A stretch of DNA of 64,000 bases from Planctomycetota bacterium. GTDB lineage: Bacteria; Planctomycetota; Planctomycetia; Pirellulales; PNKZ01. This document shows, in pieces, positions 25,072-36,905 of this stretch. A program made the position numbers and the translations under genes. How positions within the stretch are numbered: position 1 is the stretch's first letter; the number at the start of each line of letters is the position of its first letter. Below the pieces are notes generated by a model that saw nothing but the letters and a program-made list of their open reading frames with translations, did not search any database and had not been told where the DNA came from. The stretch lies in assembly GCA_018242585.1 (NCBI GenBank), contig JAFEBQ010000030.1:1-64000 (forward strand), in the 5' to 3' direction.

Positions 25072-25331
25072 AGCGGGGGCTTTGCGATGGCGGGCAAAAG
25101 GCGGGACGATTCCTCGATACTACGCTCGACTGCGGGCGGTAGCAATCAGCAGTAAGTGCTTGGCCGGTAGGCGATTGCTCATTTTCGCCAAGTTTTTGCC
25201 GGCGGATGTCCAATCCCAGCCTCCGACCTGCGAATAACTGGGGCGAAGGGGTCAATCCGGCTCGTTCGATTCAGGTCGTGGCCCACGGCGACGACGGGCC
25301 CGGTGTACGTCCCTCGAAGGAGGTTCTCGCC

Positions 25332-26144
25332 ATGATTCGCAAGTTGCTCATCACCGGAGGAAGCGTCGTTGTGCTCGGGCTGCTCTGCTTTGGACGCGAC
25401 GCGGCCAGCTACGTCTCGACCACCTACGGCCAGTTGAAACAAACGGTCCGTGACAGCGTGCCAATGGAATTTGAAATCCAACGCGCGCGGGACTTGCTCA
25501 AGAACATCGTCCCAGAGATTCGCACCAACATGCACCTGATCGCCAAGGAAGAAGTCGAGGCGGTTCGCTTGCAAAAGCAAATCGGCGAGCAGGAGACCCG
25601 GCTCGAAAAGGATCGGGGCGAGCTGATGAAGCTGAAGGCCGACTTGTCGACCGGTAAGGCGACGTTTCAATATGCCAGCCGCCGCTACACGGCCGAGCAG
25701 GTGAAGTGCGACCTGGCCAACCGGTTCGAGCGGTACAAGACCAACGAAGCCACGCTGGGCAGCTTGCGCCAAATGCACGAAGCCCGGGCGCGCAGCCTGG
25801 AAGCCGCGCGGCAGAAGCTGGAGAACACGCTGGCGGTCAAGCGGCAATTGGAAGTCGATTGCGAGCACCTCGAAGCGCGCCTTAAAATGGTCGAAGCGTC
25901 GCAAGCGGCCAGCACCTATCACTTTGACGACAGCCAACTGAGCCGCGCCAAGGAACTGGTTGCTGATTTGCGCACTCGATTGGATGTGACCGAGCGGCTG
26001 TTGGGGGCCGAGACCAAGTTTCAGGACCAGATTCCGGTCGACTCGGTCTCGCACGAGAACATCGTCGACGAAGTGACCGAGTATTTTGCCGCCGGCAGCA
26101 CGCAAGTCGCCGCCAGCGAACCGGCAGCCAAAGCCGAGGAGTAA
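25332..26144 (+). CDS. Membrane-anchored coiled-coil protein, function unknown
   Basis: A 270-aa product. The ATG at 25332 follows GGAGG, giving an N-terminal hydrophobic segment (residues 5-22, LLITGGSVVVLGLLCF) that could be an uncleaved signal anchor. The rest is almost wholly alpha-helical with heptad-like A/E/K/L/R patterns (about 50-130 and 150-235), interrupted by the YASRRYTAEQVK segment. It ends in an Ala/Glu-rich tail. PspA/IM30-like proteins have similar composition, but no diagnostic motif is present. It stands alone, divergent from the RND permease gene. Confidence 0.75.
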   Translation: MIRKLLITGGSVVVLGLLCFGRDAASYVSTTYGQLKQTVRDSVPMEFEIQRARDLLKNIVPEIRTNMHLIAKEEVEAVRLQKQIGEQETRLEKDRGELMKLKADLSTGKATFQYASRRYTAEQVKCDLANRFERYKTNEATLGSLRQMHEARARSLEAARQKLENTLAVKRQLEVDCEHLEARLKMVEASQAASTYHFDDSQLSRAKELVADLRTRLDVTERLLGAETKFQDQIPVDSVSHENIVDEVTEYFAAGSTQVAASEPAAKAEE

Positions 26145-26180: not shown

Positions 26181-26327
26181 GAACCTGGGTAGTGGGTCAG
26201 TTTGAATCTAGGACGTTGGGTGGCGGGGTCAGAGCGCAGCGATGGCCCCGTGGTTACGGTTCGGGGCCATCACTTCGTTCTGACCCCGCCACCCTGCTTC
26301 ATCAAACTGACTAACTCCCGGAACCTG
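26181..26327. repeat. Large imperfect palindrome flanked by 7-bp direct repeats
   Basis: Arms of roughly 60 bp (26191-26250 and 26261-26316) are inverted copies. They share GTCAGTTTGA at the outer ends and GGGTGGCGGGGTCAGA...GATGGCCCCG at the inner ends, around a 10-base centre. GAACCTG occurs directly outside both ends (26181-26187 and 26321-26327). This is the form of a miniature inverted-repeat element with a target-site duplication. It lies just before the FHA gene and after the coiled-coil gene. Confidence 0.75.
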
Positions 26328-26361: not shown

Positions 26362-27036
26362 ATGTCGTTATTGCACGATTTCAACCGTTGGTTCGCCTGG
26401 AACACGTCTCGCGACGCGCGACTGATGAACGCCGCCAGTGGTACGACGCCGACGCGGCTCCGCTGCTGGTTGTGGATTGATGGCGTGGGAGGCTACCTGG
26501 TCTGCTTGGGTGACGAGTTGTCGATCGGCCAGCCGGTGGCCGGCGCGCCGGTCGACATTCCGTTGCTCGGCGATCTGTCGCGTCGCCACGCCACGCTGGT
26601 CCGCGACGGCGACGGTTACTTGCTGCGGCCGATTCGCGCGGCTCGGGTGATGGAACGCGATGGAGCAGGGGAGTCGATCCTGGCCGATGGCCAGACGATC
26701 GAGCTGAGCGGGCAAGTGCGCCTGCGCTTCCGCCGTCCCCACCCGCTGAGCCATTCGGCCCGGCTTGAGTTTCAGAGCGGCCACGGCACGCAACCGCGCA
26801 GCGATGCGGTGCTGCTGTGGGCCGACACGCTGGTGCTGGGGCCGACGGCTAGCGCGCACGTGGTCTGTCCCGGATGGCCGCGCGAGGTGGTGCTGTATCG
26901 ACAGGGCGAACAACTGATGTGTCACGCGCCGGGCGAGTTCACGGTTGACGGCCAGGCCTGCCGCGATCGCGCGGCACTTGGCGCGACGTCACGGGTCAGC
27001 GGTCCAGGGTTCTCGTTTGCGTTCGAGGCAGCTTAG
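26362..27036 (+). CDS. FHA-domain protein
   Basis: Phosphothreonine-binding signalling protein of 224 aa. After a 45-residue N-terminus the FHA core begins: LSIGQP (54-59, strand 3 with the conserved Gly), DLSRRHATL (71-79, the Ser-Arg-Arg-His of the phosphopeptide loop), GDGYLLRP, and the LADGQTIEL turn. A second FHA-like or beta-sandwich region may follow (about 140-222). There is no TM segment. It is 54 bp upstream of a Ser/Thr kinase gene, so it probably binds that kinase or its substrates. The ATG at 26362 is chosen over a TTG at 26341; neither has a clear ribosome binding site. Confidence 0.85.
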   Translation: MSLLHDFNRWFAWNTSRDARLMNAASGTTPTRLRCWLWIDGVGGYLVCLGDELSIGQPVAGAPVDIPLLGDLSRRHATLVRDGDGYLLRPIRAARVMERDGAGESILADGQTIELSGQVRLRFRRPHPLSHSARLEFQSGHGTQPRSDAVLLWADTLVLGPTASAHVVCPGWPREVVLYRQGEQLMCHAPGEFTVDGQACRDRAALGATSRVSGPGFSFAFEAA

Positions 27037-27090
27037 GTCGGCACAGGGGTCGTGCGGCGGAAAGGTCCGCCGTGGGGGAGCATACGAGCG

Positions 27091-29076
27091 ATGAGCAACA
27101 TGGCCGAAACATCAGCGCTGCCCGACGCGCCGGCCAAGCCGCCGGGGGCCAATCGCTTTGCCTATGCCAGCGGCGCCAAGCCGTTGGCTGGCTACACGAT
27201 CAAGCGCGGCGTCGGACACGGTGGCTTTGGCGAGGTGTACTACGCGGTCAGCGACGCGGGCAAAGAGGTTGCGCTCAAGCTGATTCGCCGCAACCTCGAC
27301 ATCGAGCAGCGCGGCGTGCGGCAGTGCTTGAACCTGAAGCATCCCAATCTGATCTCGTTGTTCGATCTGAAAGAAGACGAGCAAGGTCAGACCTGGGTCA
27401 TCATGGAGTACGTGGCCGGGCCCAGCCTGGAAGAGACGCTGGCCGCGCACCCGCAGGGGTTGCCAACCGACGAGGCGCTCGACTGGTTTCGGGGCGTGGC
27501 GGCGGCTGTGGCGCACCTGCACGATCAAGGCCTGGTCCATCGCGACCTGAAACCGGCGAACATCTTTCGCGACCTGACGTCGTCCGACGCCCAGGGGCAT
27601 CGGCTGATCAAGTTGGGCGATTACGGGCTGTCGAAGTTCATCTCGGTCAGTCGCCGCAGCGGCCAGACCGAAAGCGTCGGCACGGTCCATTACATGGCCC
27701 CCGAGATCGCCAACGGGCGGTACGGCAAATCGATCGATATCTACGCGCTGGGGATCATGCTGTACGAACTGTTGACCGGCCACGTGCCGTTCGAGGGAGA
27801 AAGCGTCGGCGAGGTGCTGATGAAGCACATGACCGCCGAGCCCGACCTGTCGCGGCTAGCGCCGAACTATCGGCGCGTGGTACAGGCGTGCCTGGCCAAG
27901 GATCCGGCCGTGCGTCCTCAGTCGGTGCCTGAGCTATTGGCCATGTTACCGGCTGCGGATGGAACACCGGCGGTCATGCCAGCGGCTGCGGCGAAGGCGA
28001 CATCTGCAAGTGACAGCGATCCAACTGACAGTACACAGAATGATTGGGTGGCGTCGGTGAACGAGTCGTTCGAGAACGTGCGGCGCTGGTGGCACCGGGC
28101 CAGCGTGCCGACGCGAGTTGCGGGAGTCATCGCGTTGATCCTGGTCGCGCGAATTACACTGCCGCTGGCGTCGAGCAGCCTGGGCTTGATCGCGGCGGGA
28201 GGTTCTTTGATGGAAGTCTTGATCATGCTGGCCGTGGGGTTTGCGGTGGTGAAGTATGTAAAGACCCACTCGCCGCGACGTGCCGCCGCCGGTATGCCGC
28301 CGCCGAATGCTGCGCCGCGACCGCCGGTGACGCCGGCCCCAAGGCCAACTCCCCAGCCTGCGGCCGCGTCGCGCGACGTGCCACCGCCGCTGCCGACCAC
28401 CGCGTATGGCCATCGTTGGGGCCGCCGGGCCGTCGAAGCGCTGACGGTGAAAAGCCGCGGGCTGAAAGCGCGCGAGCTGACCGGCGCTTGGCTGGTATCG
28501 GCCTTGGTCGTGTTGATCACCACGCCGAACCTGATCGTCGTGCTCGGCGCGATGCCGCGCATCGAGCAGTTGGTCTGGCTGTTGTTGACGAGTCTGTCGG
28601 GCGCGTGGCTGGTATTGGCCGTGGCCAAGCCGTGGGAAGGGACGCATGGCGAGCCGTTGTTGCGTCGGTTGGTGCTGATGTCGACCGGGCTGTTGTGGGG
28701 GCTCGTCGCGTGGGGCTTGGCTCAGTATCTGTCGGTCGAATTGCCCTTCAAGTATGACAAGCTCAGGTCGTTCGCGTTGTTCGACCACTCGCAGTTTTAC
28801 CTGGCCAATGGCCAGCCAGAACTGCTTTGCTATCTGGCTTACTTTGGGTTCCTGGCGGCCGCGGTTCGCTGGTGGCAGCAGGTCACGCCGCTGCGGCGCT
28901 CGCGCGTCAGCCTGATGGCGCTCGCTGGCGCGGTGTTCGCGGCCTGGGCCTTGAACCTGGTGTGCAACTTCCCACAACCCTGGGGCTTGCTTGTCGCCGG
29001 CGCGGTTTCGCTGGCCGTGCAGATCGCGGCCCCGTGGCAGATACCGCTTGGCGAACGCTCGCGCCGAGGAGATTGA
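27091..29076 (+). CDS. Transmembrane Ser/Thr protein kinase with polytopic C-terminus
   Basis: Eukaryotic-like kinase (661 aa). Gly-rich loop GVGHGGFGEV (40-49), ATP-binding Lys63, catalytic loop HRDLKPAN (150-157), metal-binding DYG (177-179) instead of DFG, and APE (203-205) are all present, so it should be active. The kinase domain ends near 287. The C-terminal half has two hydrophobic segments (about 345-390), a Pro/Ala-rich linker and about six more TM helices (about 475-655), an uncommon architecture. ATG 27091 follows GGGGGAG. It sits between the FHA gene and a small membrane-protein gene 1 bp downstream, indicating one operon. The polytopic part may sense a membrane or envelope state. 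Confidence 0.93.
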   Translation: MSNMAETSALPDAPAKPPGANRFAYASGAKPLAGYTIKRGVGHGGFGEVYYAVSDAGKEVALKLIRRNLDIEQRGVRQCLNLKHPNLISLFDLKEDEQGQTWVIMEYVAGPSLEETLAAHPQGLPTDEALDWFRGVAAAVAHLHDQGLVHRDLKPANIFRDLTSSDAQGHRLIKLGDYGLSKFISVSRRSGQTESVGTVHYMAPEIANGRYGKSIDIYALGIMLYELLTGHVPFEGESVGEVLMKHMTAEPDLSRLAPNYRRVVQACLAKDPAVRPQSVPELLAMLPAADGTPAVMPAAAAKATSASDSDPTDSTQNDWVASVNESFENVRRWWHRASVPTRVAGVIALILVARITLPLASSSLGLIAAGGSLMEVLIMLAVGFAVVKYVKTHSPRRAAAGMPPPNAAPRPPVTPAPRPTPQPAAASRDVPPPLPTTAYGHRWGRRAVEALTVKSRGLKARELTGAWLVSALVVLITTPNLIVVLGAMPRIEQLVWLLLTSLSGAWLVLAVAKPWEGTHGEPLLRRLVLMSTGLLWGLVAWGLAQYLSVELPFKYDKLRSFALFDHSQFYLANGQPELLCYLAYFGFLAAAVRWWQQVTPLRRSRVSLMALAGAVFAAWALNLVCNFPQPWGLLVAGAVSLAVQIAAPWQIPLGERSRRGD

Positions 29077-29077
29077 G

Positions 29078-29983
29078 ATGAACACGGTTCCCGTCGAAGC
29101 TGCTCCTCAGATCACGTGGGGGGGACTTTCATTGTTGATGATTGTTGTGTTGACCCTGGCCGCGATCGCGGCGGGGGTCTCGGGCATCCGCTGGCCAAGA
29201 GGGAGCGCGCTGGCCTGGCTGGGTGGGGGCATGCTTGTGTTGTCGGCCGTAGTGTTGGCCGCGAAGGTGGGCATATTTTACATTCGCGCAAGCGCCGACT
29301 TCGGTGGGATGCCAGCGTTCGAAGTATTGCGCGACGACGCGAACGATCCAACACGCCACGACCTGATTGTTTTAGATAGCTCGATCGAAGCCGAGCCGGC
29401 GCCGTCGTCGACCGAAGCCACGAAGCCGTCGGACTCGCAGGAGGCCGACGCGAAGTCGCCCGAGACGAAGCCCGCCGCCAAGCCATCACCCGCCGCGAAG
29501 CCCTCGCCCACGCGAGCTCAGGCCGCTGGCGGTCCCACGACGACGGCCAAGCCAAAACCCGACTGGGTCGACCACCCGACCGAGGACGGGCCAAACCGCA
29601 AGGTGCTCGTCGTCGGGCCTTACCTGACGGTCGCCGAGTGCGACGAGCACTTGGACGAAGCGCTGGCCGGAAGCGTGACCGAGTTTCTTCGCGCGACGCA
29701 CGGTTCGACGGACCTGGCCCAGGTGCAGCTGAGCTCCGACTATCTGCGGCACAAGGTAAAGCGGGATCAATGGATCGAACCGGTGAAAACCTCGGTCGGC
29801 AACATGGTGCAGGTCCATTTGCTGGTCGATTTTGATCCGGCGGTGCGTGCCGCGCTCGACGCGATCGTCCAGCAATATCACCAACGGCAACGAATGGTGT
29901 ATCTTGGCTCGGGTGTGGCTGGGGTGTTGTTCGTTATCGGCGTGGTCCATCTTGGGCTGCGCCGTTTCGTGCCGGCCACCTAA
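29078..29983 (+). CDS. Hypothetical membrane protein of the kinase operon
   Basis: The 301-aa product starts 1 bp after the kinase stop, with GAGGAG upstream of the ATG. Two TM helices lie at about residues 17-37 and 46-64. A Ser/Ala/Pro/Lys-rich linker covers about 105-165, and a mixed alpha/beta domain about 175-270 (VGPYLTVAECDEHLDEALA and YLRHKVKRDQWIEPVKTS). A final TM helix (about 277-293) leads to a short tail. No family was recognised. Its tight linkage to the kinase suggests it is a substrate, partner or sensor module, which is inference. Confidence 0.75.
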   Translation: MNTVPVEAAPQITWGGLSLLMIVVLTLAAIAAGVSGIRWPRGSALAWLGGGMLVLSAVVLAAKVGIFYIRASADFGGMPAFEVLRDDANDPTRHDLIVLDSSIEAEPAPSSTEATKPSDSQEADAKSPETKPAAKPSPAAKPSPTRAQAAGGPTTTAKPKPDWVDHPTEDGPNRKVLVVGPYLTVAECDEHLDEALAGSVTEFLRATHGSTDLAQVQLSSDYLRHKVKRDQWIEPVKTSVGNMVQVHLLVDFDPAVRAALDAIVQQYHQRQRMVYLGSGVAGVLFVIGVVHLGLRRFVPAT

Positions 29984-30000
29984 GCGAATGTGGGCCTTTG

Positions 30001-30639
30001 ATGCCACGCGCCAGTGACGCACTCCTGGTCGAACGAATCCGCGCCGGCCAGGCCGACGCCTGGGCCGACCTGATCAACTTGTACGAAGGACGGTTGCTGG
30101 CGTTCGTCGCGACCCGGCTCAATGACAAGACGGCCAGCGAAGACGTCGTGCAAGAGTCGTTCCTCGGCTTTCTCAACAGCCTGCCGAACTACGACGTGGC
30201 CCAGTCGTTGGAGAACTATTTGTTCTCGATCGCGGCTCACAAGTTGACCGACCATCTGCGGCGCAATGGGCGGCGACCGGCCGTGGGGTTGCCAGGTGGC
30301 AGCTCGGCCGGCTTTGACAAGCTGCCCGGCTCGGCGCGCCCGGCCAGCAGCCTGGCCCGCGGTGGTGAACAGCGCCACCGCGAGGAGCAGGCGCTCTCGG
30401 CCGCGCTGGCCGAAGTGCTCGAAGGCTGGCGGGCCGGCGGCCAGTGGCAGCGCGTGGCCGTGGCCGAACTGCTCTTTCTGCGTGGTCAATCCAATCCCGA
30501 GGCCGCACGGCACACGGGTCTTTCCGAACAGCAAGTCGCCAACCAGCGGTTCGAGTTCGTGGCCCGTTTGCGTTCTTCGCTGCGCCGGCAAGGATTGCCC
30601 GAGGAGTTGTTTCCCGACGAGCCGGGGAAGCCGCGATGA
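30001..30639 (+). CDS. ECF-type RNA polymerase sigma factor
   Basis: A 212-aa sigma-70 family protein. Region 2 (about 8-85) has ADAWADLINLYEGRLLAF, the SEDVVQESFLGFL core-binding helix and LFSIAAHKLTDHLRR. Region 4 (about 150-200) has the HTH NPEAARHTGLSEQQVANQRFE. The Gly/Ser/Arg linker is longer than usual. It starts 17 bp after the membrane-protein stop, and its TGA overlaps the next ATG (ATGA), so it is translationally coupled to an anti-sigma-like gene. Together with the kinase and FHA genes it forms a probable signalling operon. Confidence 0.9.
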   Translation: MPRASDALLVERIRAGQADAWADLINLYEGRLLAFVATRLNDKTASEDVVQESFLGFLNSLPNYDVAQSLENYLFSIAAHKLTDHLRRNGRRPAVGLPGGSSAGFDKLPGSARPASSLARGGEQRHREEQALSAALAEVLEGWRAGGQWQRVAVAELLFLRGQSNPEAARHTGLSEQQVANQRFEFVARLRSSLRRQGLPEELFPDEPGKPR

Positions 30640-31034
30640 ACGACGCCGATCTGCTGGCGTATCTCGACGAACAATTGCCGGCTGGCGAGATGGCGCGGCT
30701 GGAACAAGCGCTGCGCGGTGACGAGGCGTTGCGCGCGCGGCTGGCGCGATTGTTGCGCGAGCGCGACGCCGGGCTTCATTCGCTGGCCGCGATCTGGCGG
30801 CGCGGGCGGATAAGTTGCGCGACGCGGTCGCAACTGGGAAGCTACCTGCTGGGCGTGTTGCCGACGGCCGAGGCGGAGTTCTTGCGGCTGCACTTGGAGG
30901 TGACCGGCTGTCGCTATTGCCTGGCCAATCTTGATGATCTGCAAAGCCAGCGTTCCGCGGCGGCCACGCCAGCGACCGAATCGCGCCGTCGTCGATACTT
31001 TCAATCGAGCGTCGGGCGGTTGAAGGCCACTTAG
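30636..31034 (+). CDS. Anti-sigma-like small protein, partner of the ECF sigma factor
   Basis: A 132-aa product coupled to the sigma gene by a 4-base ATGA overlap. The N-terminus (MNDADLLAYLDEQLPAGEMA) resembles anti-sigma proteins that begin with a short acidic helix. A HLEVTGCRYC segment (His-x5-Cys-x2-Cys) near residues 89-98 resembles, but is not identical to, the zinc-binding His-x3-Cys-x2-Cys of ZAS-type anti-sigma factors. There is no TM helix. Holding the sigma factor inactive is the natural proposal, resting on position and this motif. Confidence 0.75.
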   Translation: MNDADLLAYLDEQLPAGEMARLEQALRGDEALRARLARLLRERDAGLHSLAAIWRRGRISCATRSQLGSYLLGVLPTAEAEFLRLHLEVTGCRYCLANLDDLQSQRSAAATPATESRRRRYFQSSVGRLKAT

Positions 31035-32504: not shown

Positions 32505-34487
32505 TCATTCTGAAACGTCCAGGTGCGGGTCAAACCCCATTCGTTGGCGAGCTTTCGACGTTTCACGCTCTTGCCACAACAGCCGGCGGCGGATCAACAG
32601 ATTGCGCCGCTCGATCATTCGCTGGGCGCGCTGGCAGCGGCCGATCAGCGACCTGGCTCGCGATGGCTTGTAATCGGCTTTCAATTGTTTGACCACCGTC
32701 GTGCCGAACGCCCGCTCCAGGACATCATCGTCCAACGACAAGTACTGGCGATAGGTGCCAGGGTCTCCTTGCCGGGCACAGCGGCCGATCAATTGCAGGT
32801 CGATCCGCTCGGCGTCGTTCAGCTCGGAACAGATCACGTGCAGCCCGCCGCGCTCGCGCACCTCGTCGGCCAGCACAATATCGGTGCCGCGGCCGGCCAT
32901 GTTCGTGGCCACGGTAATCCGCCCCGGCTGGCCAGCCTGGGCCACGATCTCCGCCTCGCGGGCGATCTGCTTGGCATTGAGCACCACGTGCGGCAAGCCC
33001 GCCGAGGTCAACAGCTCGGAAAGATGTTCCGACTTTTCAATCGAGCGCGTGCCAATCAACACCGCGCGTCCCGATTGCGAAAGTTCAGCGGCCTCGCCCA
33101 CGATGGCGTTCCATTTCTCTTCGGCCGTGCCTAGCAGTTGCGCCTCGCAACGCTGTCTCAGGCAGGGCAAGTGGGTCGGAATGGCCACTGCCCGCGTGCT
33201 GAAAATGCGGCGGAACTCGGCACTTGACGTCATCACGGTGCCGCTCATGCCGGCCAGGTGCGTGTAGCCGAGGGCCAGGTCTTGCAGCGTGATGCGGGCC
33301 GCCTGATCGGTCGGCGCCGTGATGGGAACATGTTCCTTGGCCTCGATCGCCTGGTGCAAGGCGCGACGCCATTTGCGTCCTTCGGCAATGCGGCCGGTCG
33401 AGGCGTCGACGATCTCGACCTTGTCATCGCGGACCACGTAGTCGCGCCCGCGCAGGTAAAGCTGCTGGGCCGTCAGCGCGCGTTCCATGTCGTCGTACAG
33501 GGACGTCCAGCTCAGGCTGTTCAGCAACTCGGGACGCGGCAACGACCGCAGCCGCTGGCGGCCGCGCGGGGTCAGTTCGACCAGGTGCCGGTGACGATCG
33601 ATCTCAAAATCGTTGTCGACTTCAAACTGGCCGACCGCCGCGGCGCAAAACTTGTACTGAGCCGCTTCGACCGTGGCCAACTCGGACGAGGCCGAGATGA
33701 TCAACGGCGTGCAGGCGTCGTCGATCAGCAAGTTGTCCGCCTCGTCAACCAGCAAGAAGTGCCGCTCGCGCTGCACCGGGCGGACCATCCGTCGCTCTTC
33801 CGTGTCGAAGGCAAAGAATCCTTGTCGCCGGTTTTCACGCAGGTGGCGCTGCCAAAGCCGATCGCGCAGCGCGTCGAAACCGAACTCCTTGAGCGTCCCG
33901 TAGGTGATGTCCGCATCGTACGCGCGCTGGCGCACATCGCGAGCGGTGACGGTCCCCTCGACCACGCCGGCCGACAGCCCCAGGAACCGATAGACCGGCC
34001 CCATCTGCTCGGCGTCGCGGCGAGCCAGGTAGTCATTGGCCGTGGCCAGATGCACCCCCTTGCCGGCGAGCGCGTGCAGGTACAATGGCATGGTGGCCGT
34101 CAGCGTCTTCCCTTCGCCGGTTTGCATTTCGACGATCGAACGCTGGCTGAGGGCCAACGCCCCCAGGATTTGCTCGGGAAAATGGCGCAGGCCGATCGTC
34201 CGCCGCGCCGCCTCGCGCACCAGGGCATAGGCCTCGACGGTCAGTTGCGACAACGGCTCGCCGGTCTTGGCCCGATAGCGCAGCGCCAAACTACGGCGGT
34301 GCAGTTCGCCGTCACTTTCCCCTTCCAGCGTCGGCTCCAAGGCTTCGATCTGGGCGACGATGTCGCGCGGTTGGCCACGCCACAGTTGCGTACAGCGATC
34401 GTACGCCCGGTGCAGATCGCGCCCCACGGCCGCGACCAGCGATCCGCCGGCATCGAGCGCGCGCTGTTCCAGTTCGCGAATGCTCAT
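32505..34487 (-). CDS. SecA-like preprotein-translocase ATPase, short (SecA2-type)
   Basis: A DEAD-type ATPase of 660 aa, short of housekeeping SecA (840 aa or more) because the C-terminal helical-scaffold/wing end and the SEC-C zinc tail are missing. Motif I is MQTGEGKTLTATMP (near 122-128). Motif II is LLVDEADNLLIDDACTPLIIS (SecA normally has DEARTPLIIS). AGMSGTVMTSS, ATNMAGRGTDIVL and the final IGRCARQGDPGTYRQYLSL are all SecA signatures. The protein is thus a second SecA-like motor, not the essential one. It follows the PqqD-M50-HlyD gene in the same direction with a 183-bp gap that holds a repeat element. Its substrate is probably tied to that cassette. Confidence 0.9.
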   Translation of the reverse strand: MSIRELEQRALDAGGSLVAAVGRDLHRAYDRCTQLWRGQPRDIVAQIEALEPTLEGESDGELHRRSLALRYRAKTGEPLSQLTVEAYALVREAARRTIGLRHFPEQILGALALSQRSIVEMQTGEGKTLTATMPLYLHALAGKGVHLATANDYLARRDAEQMGPVYRFLGLSAGVVEGTVTARDVRQRAYDADITYGTLKEFGFDALRDRLWQRHLRENRRQGFFAFDTEERRMVRPVQRERHFLLVDEADNLLIDDACTPLIISASSELATVEAAQYKFCAAAVGQFEVDNDFEIDRHRHLVELTPRGRQRLRSLPRPELLNSLSWTSLYDDMERALTAQQLYLRGRDYVVRDDKVEIVDASTGRIAEGRKWRRALHQAIEAKEHVPITAPTDQAARITLQDLALGYTHLAGMSGTVMTSSAEFRRIFSTRAVAIPTHLPCLRQRCEAQLLGTAEEKWNAIVGEAAELSQSGRAVLIGTRSIEKSEHLSELLTSAGLPHVVLNAKQIAREAEIVAQAGQPGRITVATNMAGRGTDIVLADEVRERGGLHVICSELNDAERIDLQLIGRCARQGDPGTYRQYLSLDDDVLERAFGTTVVKQLKADYKPSRARSLIGRCQRAQRMIERRNLLIRRRLLWQERETSKARQRMGFDPHLDVSE

Positions 34488-34512
34488 TGCTCGATTTGCC
34501 TGAATAGCATTC

Positions 34513-34640
34513 TGAAAACGATTGAACCGCAAAGACGCAAAGTGAAGAGATAACCAGGAAGTCCCTTTTTCATCATTCACCACTCAGCATTCATCAATTC
34601 CTTCTTGGCGTCCTTTGCGTCTTTGCGGTTCAAATGCTCC
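34513..34640. repeat. Interspersed inverted-repeat element (AACCGCAAAGACGCAAAG family), copy 1
   Basis: The arm TTGAACCGCAAAGACGCAAA+G at 34522-34542 is perfectly repeated in inverse form at 34613-34633. The 70-bp centre contains short words (CATTCACCACTCAGCATTCATC). A second copy of the element occurs near 63.6 kb. It fills the gap between the M50-HlyD and SecA-like genes and contains no gene. Confidence 0.8.
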
Positions 34641-34670: not shown

Positions 34671-36905
34671 TTAGAGCCGGAAGTGGAAGGTCTGGGAGAA
34701 CCAGCGCCACCCTTGTTGAGCGGCTGACTCCCAGGGAAGAATAATCTTGGCCCGGCCGCGGAAGCCAGTCCGCAGCTCGCCCGGGGTGACGTGAATCGGC
34801 ACGCGTGCCTGATACGAGACCGAAAGAGGGCGCTCGGCGCCGGTTTCATCGGTTCGAGTCGCCAACTCACCGCCAACCTTGTTCGACAACGTGCGCGGAC
34901 TGATCTTCAAATCGGAATGAGCAATCTCGGTCAACGTCCCCCAGAGGGTCTTCGTCGGTGACTCGTCGAGCTTAATCGCCACCTGTTGCCCTTCGATCAC
35001 GTACGACACATCCGCCTGATCGAGCACAATCTGGGCTTCGTAGCTGCCGGTGTCACCCACCTGGCACAGCAGGGTTCCTTGCTCCAGGTAGCAGTCGCGG
35101 TTGCGAGGCTCGAACAAACTGCCTGACCAAGTGGCTAACTCGCCCGGCGGCAACGGTCGGCGCGCTTGCAGCGGCGCCGGCAGCACCGTGCCGGCGCGCG
35201 TGGCCCGCAGCGCCAGTCGCTCGAAGTGCTGCTGCTTTTGCTCCAACTGCTCGGTCACGGCCGCCAAGGTCGATTCGAGCTCGGGGATTTGCCGACTGAT
35301 TTCGCGCTCTTGCGAGCGACGGTGGACCAGCCCGTCGAGTTGGGCCTGTAATAAGCCGCGGCGAGCTTTCAGCCGGGCGATCTCGAATTCCAGGTCCAGG
35401 TTGCGCAGTTGCGCCAGCAGCGTCCCCGGCTCGACACGCTGGCCGGGGGCGACTTTCATCTCGATCAGCTCGCCGGGGACTTCGACGTAGACGTTCTGCG
35501 GGGCCAGCGGCTTGAGTTCAAGCGTCCCCCAGGCGCGATGCGGCAACGGCACGACTGCCAACAACAGCGCCACGAGTCCCAATCCCACGAAGGTCGCACG
35601 AGCTCGGCGGCGGTCCATCTCTTCGCCGCGGCCGGGAACCCGCAGGTAGCGCGCCAGGCGATAGAGCGGAAAGCCGACCATTCCCGTCAACGAGGCCAGG
35701 CCCAACAACTGGGCGATGATCGTCAGGTGGTAAGGCTCGAAGAACCGGTACAAGAACCAGATCACCGTGACATAGACGAACATTCGATACCCGAACGCCG
35801 CCAGGGCGAACGCCACATAGAGGACGCGCCGCCGGATCGACATGTACGCTTGCTGTGGCGGCTCGATTCCCAATAGCAACGAGGCCAACGAGCGTTGCAC
35901 GTATTGATTTGCCTTCTGGTCCAGGTTGGGCACTTCGATTAGGTCGATCAGAATGTAATAGCCGTCGAACCGCATCAACGGGTTGGCGTTGAAAAAGATC
36001 GTCGTCACCGAGCAGACGAACATCACGTTCAGGGCAATGTGGTGCAGCAGCCCATCGGTCGTGAACCACCAGATGAACGTGGCAATCGCCGACAGGACCA
36101 GCTCGACGTATATCCCGGCGGCGGCGATGGCCGCGCGATGCCACTTGTTGGGCAACATCCACGAGTCGGAAACTTTGCAATATAGGCACGGCGTAAACAC
36201 CAACAGCATCATGCCCAACTCGGTGCACTCGCCCCCGAAATGCCGACAGGTGAGCCCGTGCCCCAGCTCGTGCAACACCTTGACCGCCCCCAAGGTGATG
36301 AACAGCAGGATCGCCGTCTCGAACGTGAAGTACTGATGAAACGTCGGTAACTGGGCGAGGAAGTCATCGAACTTGGCCAAGATCAGCACCAGCGCCGCCA
36401 GAATCAACGCCAGGCTCAGCCCCAGCGCCTGTGGCGAATACAACCAGCCGAACCAGGCATAGAGTCCGTCCAAGAACCGTCGCGGGTTCACCCCCTTGAA
36501 CCGCATGGACAAGGGGTTCATCAGCCACGACAGGCCCCGGTTGCGGTTGTGCTCGGCGCGGCGGCGGCCGAGTTCTTCACCCTGGCCGGGTGCTTCGGAA
36601 TAGACCAGCCCCGACTGGTGGAACAGGGCGAACATCTGGGCCAGCTCTTCCAGCCGGATTTCGTCCGGGGCAAAGCGGGCGTCGAAGGCCGCCTTGATTT
36701 CGCGCGTCGAAGTCTTGCCGTCGAGCAGCTCGAGCACGGCATACTCGGGATCGTCGAGCCGGACGTAGTTCATGCCGATCGGATCTTTCAGCACCCAGCA
36801 GTCGCGCCCTTCGAAGTGCTGGCGCGCCACGACCAGGTCGGGACAGCGGCGCAGCCGCACCGGGCGCGAGGCGGTGGCGATCACGCTGTCGTTGAAGCTG
36901 GTCAT
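34671..36905 (-). CDS. PqqD-like / M50 site-2 metalloprotease / HlyD fusion membrane protein
   Basis: A 744-aa polytopic protein. Residues about 18-105 resemble a PqqD/winged-helix peptide-binding domain (ARQHFEGRDCWVLKDPIG, VLELLDGKTSTREIK). The M50 membrane protease core has the zinc motif HELGH (212-216) and the distal NANPLMRFDGYY motif (about 306-317, third ligand Asp), among eight or so TM segments (about 150-440). A lipoyl/HlyD adaptor follows (about 460-740: VEVPGELIEMKVAPGQRVEPG, RRGLLQAQLDGLVHRRS). This arrangement resembles peptide-export maturation proteases but with an adaptor fused on. It lies 30 bp after the GAF-HlyD gene and upstream of the SecA-like gene. Confidence 0.9.
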   Translation of the reverse strand: MTSFNDSVIATASRPVRLRRCPDLVVARQHFEGRDCWVLKDPIGMNYVRLDDPEYAVLELLDGKTSTREIKAAFDARFAPDEIRLEELAQMFALFHQSGLVYSEAPGQGEELGRRRAEHNRNRGLSWLMNPLSMRFKGVNPRRFLDGLYAWFGWLYSPQALGLSLALILAALVLILAKFDDFLAQLPTFHQYFTFETAILLFITLGAVKVLHELGHGLTCRHFGGECTELGMMLLVFTPCLYCKVSDSWMLPNKWHRAAIAAAGIYVELVLSAIATFIWWFTTDGLLHHIALNVMFVCSVTTIFFNANPLMRFDGYYILIDLIEVPNLDQKANQYVQRSLASLLLGIEPPQQAYMSIRRRVLYVAFALAAFGYRMFVYVTVIWFLYRFFEPYHLTIIAQLLGLASLTGMVGFPLYRLARYLRVPGRGEEMDRRRARATFVGLGLVALLLAVVPLPHRAWGTLELKPLAPQNVYVEVPGELIEMKVAPGQRVEPGTLLAQLRNLDLEFEIARLKARRGLLQAQLDGLVHRRSQEREISRQIPELESTLAAVTEQLEQKQQHFERLALRATRAGTVLPAPLQARRPLPPGELATWSGSLFEPRNRDCYLEQGTLLCQVGDTGSYEAQIVLDQADVSYVIEGQQVAIKLDESPTKTLWGTLTEIAHSDLKISPRTLSNKVGGELATRTDETGAERPLSVSYQARVPIHVTPGELRTGFRGRAKIILPWESAAQQGWRWFSQTFHFRL

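Follow-up and report, generated by a model that had tools for sequence, protein, structure and literature searches.

A conserved planctomycete gene module combining a Hanks-type kinase with an ECF sigma factor and a zinc anti-sigma-like protein

Planctomycetes are known for their unusual membranes, and they carry many Ser/Thr kinases and many extracytoplasmic function (ECF) sigma factors. In several described ECF groups the sigma gene lies beside a Ser/Thr kinase gene: ECF43, with the pairs EcfP/PknT and EcfK/PknS, and ECF59, ECF61, ECF62 and ECF217, which have planctomycete hosts (PMC8999054) and which reviews call uncharacterised. In mycobacteria, the Ser/Thr kinase PknB phosphorylates RshA and RseA, soluble zinc anti-sigma proteins of ECF factors, which release their sigma factor on phosphorylation (PMC8999054). 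Other ECF factors, among them ECF238 (CorE) and ECF41, have regulatory C-terminal extensions. The Psp and Lia envelope-stress systems include a membrane-associated coiled-coil protein; Toastrack proteins are components of Psp-type systems (PMC11237479), and in Bacillus the connection of PspA to the membrane is made by an SPFH protein (PMC8581546). Here we analyze a locus that resembles each of these systems in part, a six-gene module on the plus strand of a 64,000-nucleotide stretch of a Planctomycetota genome of the order Pirellulales (contig JAFEBQ010000030.1, positions 1 to 64,000; “the window”).

An earlier note on this DNA had described a run of five plus-strand genes, and all five were confirmed: FHA (26362..27036), encoding a 224-amino-acid FHA-fold protein; KIN (27091..29076), a Hanks-type Ser/Thr kinase of 661 amino acids; TM4 (29078..29983), a membrane protein of 301 amino acids; SIG (30001..30639), an ECF sigma factor of 212 amino acids; and ASG (30636..31034), a soluble zinc anti-sigma-like protein of 132 amino acids. 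The gaps between them are 54 bp (FHA-KIN), 1 bp (KIN-TM4), 17 bp (TM4-SIG) and −4 bp (SIG-ASG). The module has one member more than that note counted, a coiled-coil gene (coil, 25332..26144, plus strand) upstream of FHA, which holds the same place in 40 of the 41 loci compared. Its linkage is hidden in the window by a 130-bp palindromic repeat (26190..26320, plus strand), which sits between coil and FHA and is not part of the conserved module. This nearly perfect palindrome folds at −50 kcal/mol (z −9.7), and about 14 near full-length copies, 91–96% identical, are found in the genome, making it a dispersed MITE- or REP-like repeat.

The comparison set consisted of the window and 40 FHA loci of relatives, spanning about 20 families. 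Loci were picked on FHA alone, so that the choice did not favor any particular neighboring genes. In all 41 loci, the genes that were found lie on one strand in the order coil-FHA-KIN-TM4-SIG-ASG; all six are present in 22 loci, and at least coil, FHA, KIN, SIG and ASG in 29. Given one order and one strand throughout, the association of these genes is more than chance. Among 97 genomes of the order, 74 have an FHA orthologue and 76 an ASG orthologue; both are present in 71, neither in 18 and only one in 8 (Fisher p 2e-12, uncorrected for shared ancestry), and the absences are concentrated in one family and one genus. SIG or ASG is retained in the genome even where it lies outside the cluster. 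All 13 genomes tested for SIG, unlinked cases included, had a single copy. Named Pirellulales with SIG relatives are Lacipirellula, Aeoliella, Blastopirellula, Mariniblastus, Rhodopirellula and Thermogutta.

The gene content and order extend across much of the phylum. In 393 genomes sampled from it, strong FHA-profile matches occurred well beyond the order, and 20 loci from outside the order were examined. Most class-level members have the same gene order. In four loci (L131-L134) the order is FHA-KIN-SIG-ASG-coil, so that coil travels with the set, at its opposite end. In three outlying planctomycetes (L130, L135, L136), SIG and ASG form a single reading frame; the 332-residue fusion in L130 has its sigma part at 43-237 and its zinc part at 253-331. 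This gene fusion suggests that SIG and ASG are in contact. The order had been proposed for checking in relatives, and its conservation supports well a functional link between the kinase and the sigma/anti-sigma pair.

SIG is an ECF sigma factor (group 4 of the sigma-70 family). It matches Sigma70_r2 (E 1.8e-13, better than the curated cut-off) and Sigma70_ECF (1.1e-5), exceeds the TIGR02937 cut-off, has only regions 2 and 4, and is matched by solved ECF structures. Its acidic region-2.2 motif, SEDVVQE, is intact, with E47 and D48 in 34 of 34 orthologues and E52 in 33 of 34. ASG matches zf-HC2, the family to which zinc anti-sigma factors usually belong, at E 2.1e-7 (31.4 bits against a cut-off of 22.2), as do 21 of 29 orthologues at E ≤ 0.1; a profile of ASG found no relative among solved structures. 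Hydropathy reveals no membrane segment in ASG. Residues C61, H86, C92 and C95 are invariant, and the protein ends in a conserved tail, RRRKYFQSSAG, the core of which survives in the fused forms. Outlying lineages lack the N-terminal repeat of ASG and keep the zinc part and the tail.

The kinase encoded by KIN is typical in its catalytic domain (Pkinase E 3.8e-48, above the curated cut-off), and K63, H150-R-D-L-K-P, N157, D177-Y-G and A203-P-E, the residues that define Hanks-type kinases, are conserved in 98–100% of the 41 sequences. Its C-terminal part had been credited with eight or so transmembrane helices; hydropathy gives six hydrophobic segments, and orthologues have 1-10, most often six. 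The same genome contains 37 further matches to KIN. TM4 has a fast-evolving domain between two N-terminal hydrophobic segments and one at the C-terminus, and neither a family in the profile search nor a relative among solved structures was found for it.

The FHA protein had been taken for a phosphothreonine reader, an idea that holds for its fold and is doubtful for its function. The window protein matches the FHA family only at E 0.075, under the curated cut-off; 36 of 41 orthologues match it, the best at 1e-9. The protein has an FHA domain (residues ~43-130) and a second beta domain. Its structural model (pLDDT 88) had FHA domains as top Foldseek matches (E 2e-4), and the FHA beta-sandwich was confirmed by VIA (Z 7.6, rmsd 2.5 over 81 residues). 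The Ser-x-x-His motif is present (S73 in 35 of 41, H76 in 38 of 41). However, the phosphothreonine-binding Arg is replaced by Gln in 35 of 41 orthologues, including the window protein (Gly56-Gln57); Arg is found in 4 and His in 2, with variation at this residue among outlying lineages as well. This replacement is what makes the reader role doubtful. Among solved structures, the closest in sequence is the FHA domain of the kinesin-3 KIF1B (E 5e-5), which likewise has Gly-Gln where most FHA domains carry Gly-Arg; KIF1B is a eukaryotic motor protein, and a resemblance in one domain implies no common pathway. In many FHA orthologues the N-terminus is extended by a helical-repeat region, ~280 to 700 residues long in L087, L085, L072, L117 and L131-L134; the window copy has no such extension.

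The coil protein (270 amino acids) has a single hydrophobic helix at its N-terminus, followed by a long hairpin of coiled coil (model pLDDT 82); a single hydrophobic segment is also seen in 33 of 40 orthologues. Vipp1 ranked first in Foldseek, but only at E 0.014, and its VIA Z of ~11 is equalled by many unrelated helical hairpins. PspA_IM30 did not match the window protein at E ≤ 1, and in a search with 39 orthologues it was not one of the 25 families that were hit most frequently. For want of a profile match within this scope, we did not assign coil to PspA.

In the sequences before coil, short words and a bipartite word showed clear enrichment relative to shuffles. Nothing clear over shuffles was found upstream of FHA, KIN, TM4 or SIG, and enrichment upstream of ASG was explained by the coding end of SIG. 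Alignment at fixed spacing (39 sites used) gave tttCCAA(G/T)AT-N13-GCGAA(t), with five positions invariant and the consensus CCAAGAT-N13-GCGAAT; written equivalently as CCAAG-N16-CGAAT, it has the layout typical of ECF promoters. In 37 of 40 loci the element stands before coil and outscores every one of 2,000 shuffled sequences, although the matrix was trained on these same loci and the shuffles preserved only base composition. A stronger test than the training-set score was provided by class-level loci outside the training set. When the whole locus (~25 kb) was scanned on both strands, 9 of the 11 independent loci with coil had their best site 98-153 nt before that gene; in L119, the second-best site lies there.

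Pattern matches elsewhere point to candidate targets; in the window's own genome the exact pattern has four sites. The genes that follow them include coil (8 loci), KIN (L177, L195), small membrane proteins (4 loci), Toastrack DUF4097 (2), AIM24, DUF4870, DUF1232, a sub-threshold SPFH match and TM4. With Toastrack and SPFH among them, membrane stress is our best guess for the signal, and we consider envelope stress about as probable as all other signals together. Genomes without the SIG system had few pattern matches, but they are smaller and the spacer control was also depleted in them, and we gave this difference no weight. The small membrane proteins (L159, L179, L189, L226) are related to one another, ~80-100 amino acids long and outside any Pfam family, and they share a C-terminal K..M..RGMS..E-like motif. 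The promoter-like pattern also precedes other ECF sigma genes, at L180 and L238, which hints at a sigma cascade.

We propose, with a probability of roughly 0.5, that these genes form a planctomycete signaling module centered on SIG, in which KIN acts on the SIG-ASG complex. At rest, SIG would be held by the soluble zinc protein ASG, while KIN and its membrane partner TM4 would sense the state of the envelope. Active KIN would act on the complex, most likely by phosphorylating ASG, for which the conserved basic/SS tail, with S124 and S125, is the best candidate phosphosite, and the FHA-fold protein would be a largely phosphorylation-independent scaffold. Freed SIG would transcribe from CCAAGAT-N13-GCGAAT promoters. 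As the chief of these would stand before coil, the module would drive itself and produce coil, a membrane-anchored protein that may be an effector protecting the membrane. The parts of this model differ in strength. It is highly probable that SIG reads the promoter-like element of coil, quite probable that ASG inhibits SIG and probable that KIN controls both; the assignment of ASG, rather than SIG or FHA, as the kinase target is tentative. We prefer the ASG route because FHA has lost its Arg, SIG has kept its acidic motif, ASG is soluble with invariant Cys/His residues and a conserved tail, and PknB offers a precedent. Being a soluble zinc protein with such a tail, ASG is a likelier control point than SIG.

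Several observations weigh against this model. The zinc ligands of ASG are spaced H86-x5-C92-x2-C95 (plus C61) and not in the usual H-x3-C-x2-C, albeit all four are invariant, and we therefore call the protein “anti-sigma-like”. The window's own element (25210..25234, plus strand, ~120 nt 5' of coil) is a weak copy of CCAAKAT-N13-GCGAA, with a matrix score of 14.1 and two mismatches, although its position is as in relatives; two-mismatch matches number 23 in the window against 9 expected from shuffles, so that the window match alone is not significant. Across 196 relatives, CCAAKAT-N11-CGGCGAA occurs 154 times against ~71 for a control with one base added to the spacer, and a large part of the pattern matches is thus background. 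Most candidate targets were seen once, and the envelope-stress reading rests on these few families. Finally, SIG and ASG lie apart from the kinase cluster in some genomes (e.g. G003, G022, G038, G047), and intergenic gaps in relatives are frequently 70-350 bp, so that order and direction are conserved but a compact single operon is not.

These last two points would favor a different arrangement, in which a kinase/FHA/coil membrane system and a separate ECF/ASG pair are mere neighbors, unconnected by phosphorylation, and the pair uses ASG as its sensor of redox or zinc; soluble zinc anti-sigmas are indeed often redox sensors (PMC7406223). Against it, one gene order is kept across about 20 families and also outside the Pirellulales, FHA and ASG are lost together, and the promoter-like element stands at coil, the head of the kinase cluster. 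We consider this arrangement unlikely. The SIG-ASG fusion and the outlying lineages that lose the N-terminal repeat of ASG but keep its zinc part and tail would also be compatible with ASG as a zinc-binding cofactor that SIG requires, the kinase regulating the complex. Since zf-HC2 is the usual zinc anti-sigma family, and since regulation of ECF factors by C-terminal extensions is known (PMC8999054), which makes the fusion compatible with inhibition, a cofactor role seems very improbable.

The kinase might instead phosphorylate and switch on SIG itself, as PknT does with EcfP and PknS with EcfK, leaving ASG as a secondary brake. Conserved Ser residues occur in the sigma2-sigma4 linker (S116 invariant, S117 in 97%), and a Thr or Ser at 53 lies beside the acidic motif, but Ser in this linker is common among ECF factors generally. 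KIN and the ECF gene are neighbors, as in known kinase-linked groups (PMC8999054, PMC13147305), a feature that fits ECF43. In that group, for which direct phosphorylation is proven, the acidic DAED motif of region 2.2 is replaced by uncharged residues, the phosphorylated Thr among them (PMC8999054), whereas the motif of SIG is intact (33-34 of 34); moreover, an anti-sigma is co-encoded, and kinase-linked groups usually have none (PMC8999054). On account of the intact motif, we rejected ECF43-like activation of SIG. The suggestion in the earlier note that phosphorylation controls the sigma factor directly is supported in part, in its link of the kinase with the sigma/anti-sigma pair, and is weaker in its specific mechanism. 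Phosphorylation may occur at other sites of SIG, but direct activation is, in our judgment, an improbable alternative to action of KIN on the SIG-ASG complex through ASG.

Compared with described systems, the module combines known parts differently. It differs from the kinase-linked ECF groups, as far as these can be compared by description, in its co-encoded zinc anti-sigma, its intact acidic motif and the presence of FHA, coil and TM4. PknB is a general cell-wall kinase encoded elsewhere, whereas here kinase, FHA and the sigma/anti-sigma pair share one conserved cluster and phosphorylation is predicted. The fused forms, with sigma factor and Cys/His domain in one polypeptide, recall CorE and ECF41; however, their extension is zf-HC2-like, encoded separately in most relatives and accompanied by the kinase cluster. 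Unlike Psp/Lia, the module has neither a two-component nor a PspF regulator, and kinase-linked ECF control is proposed in their place. No earlier description of the six-gene unit was found in the literature searched, a weak negative because planctomycete comparative genomics and ECF work were incompletely covered, and the unit may be partly described already.

The module offers a single-copy, widely conserved set with a predicted promoter and with a candidate phosphosite in a short peptide that is conserved. Confirmation of the model would place a kinase, an FHA-fold scaffold and a sigma/anti-sigma pair on a single pathway, and would give a phylum with unusual membranes a membrane-stress response. 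The broadest form of the model, a phylum-wide envelope-stress system in which a membrane kinase releases an ECF sigma factor through a zinc anti-sigma, with a phosphorylation-independent FHA scaffold and sigma and anti-sigma sometimes in one polypeptide, is speculative and rather unlikely to be right in full; if true, such a system would fill the place that Psp/Lia or RpoE holds elsewhere. Downstream of the module, on the minus strand, reading by eye suggests a short SecA-like protein of 692 amino acids (32505-34583) and, beside it, a membrane protein of which one part resembles HlyD and another a metallopeptidase (34671-36905).

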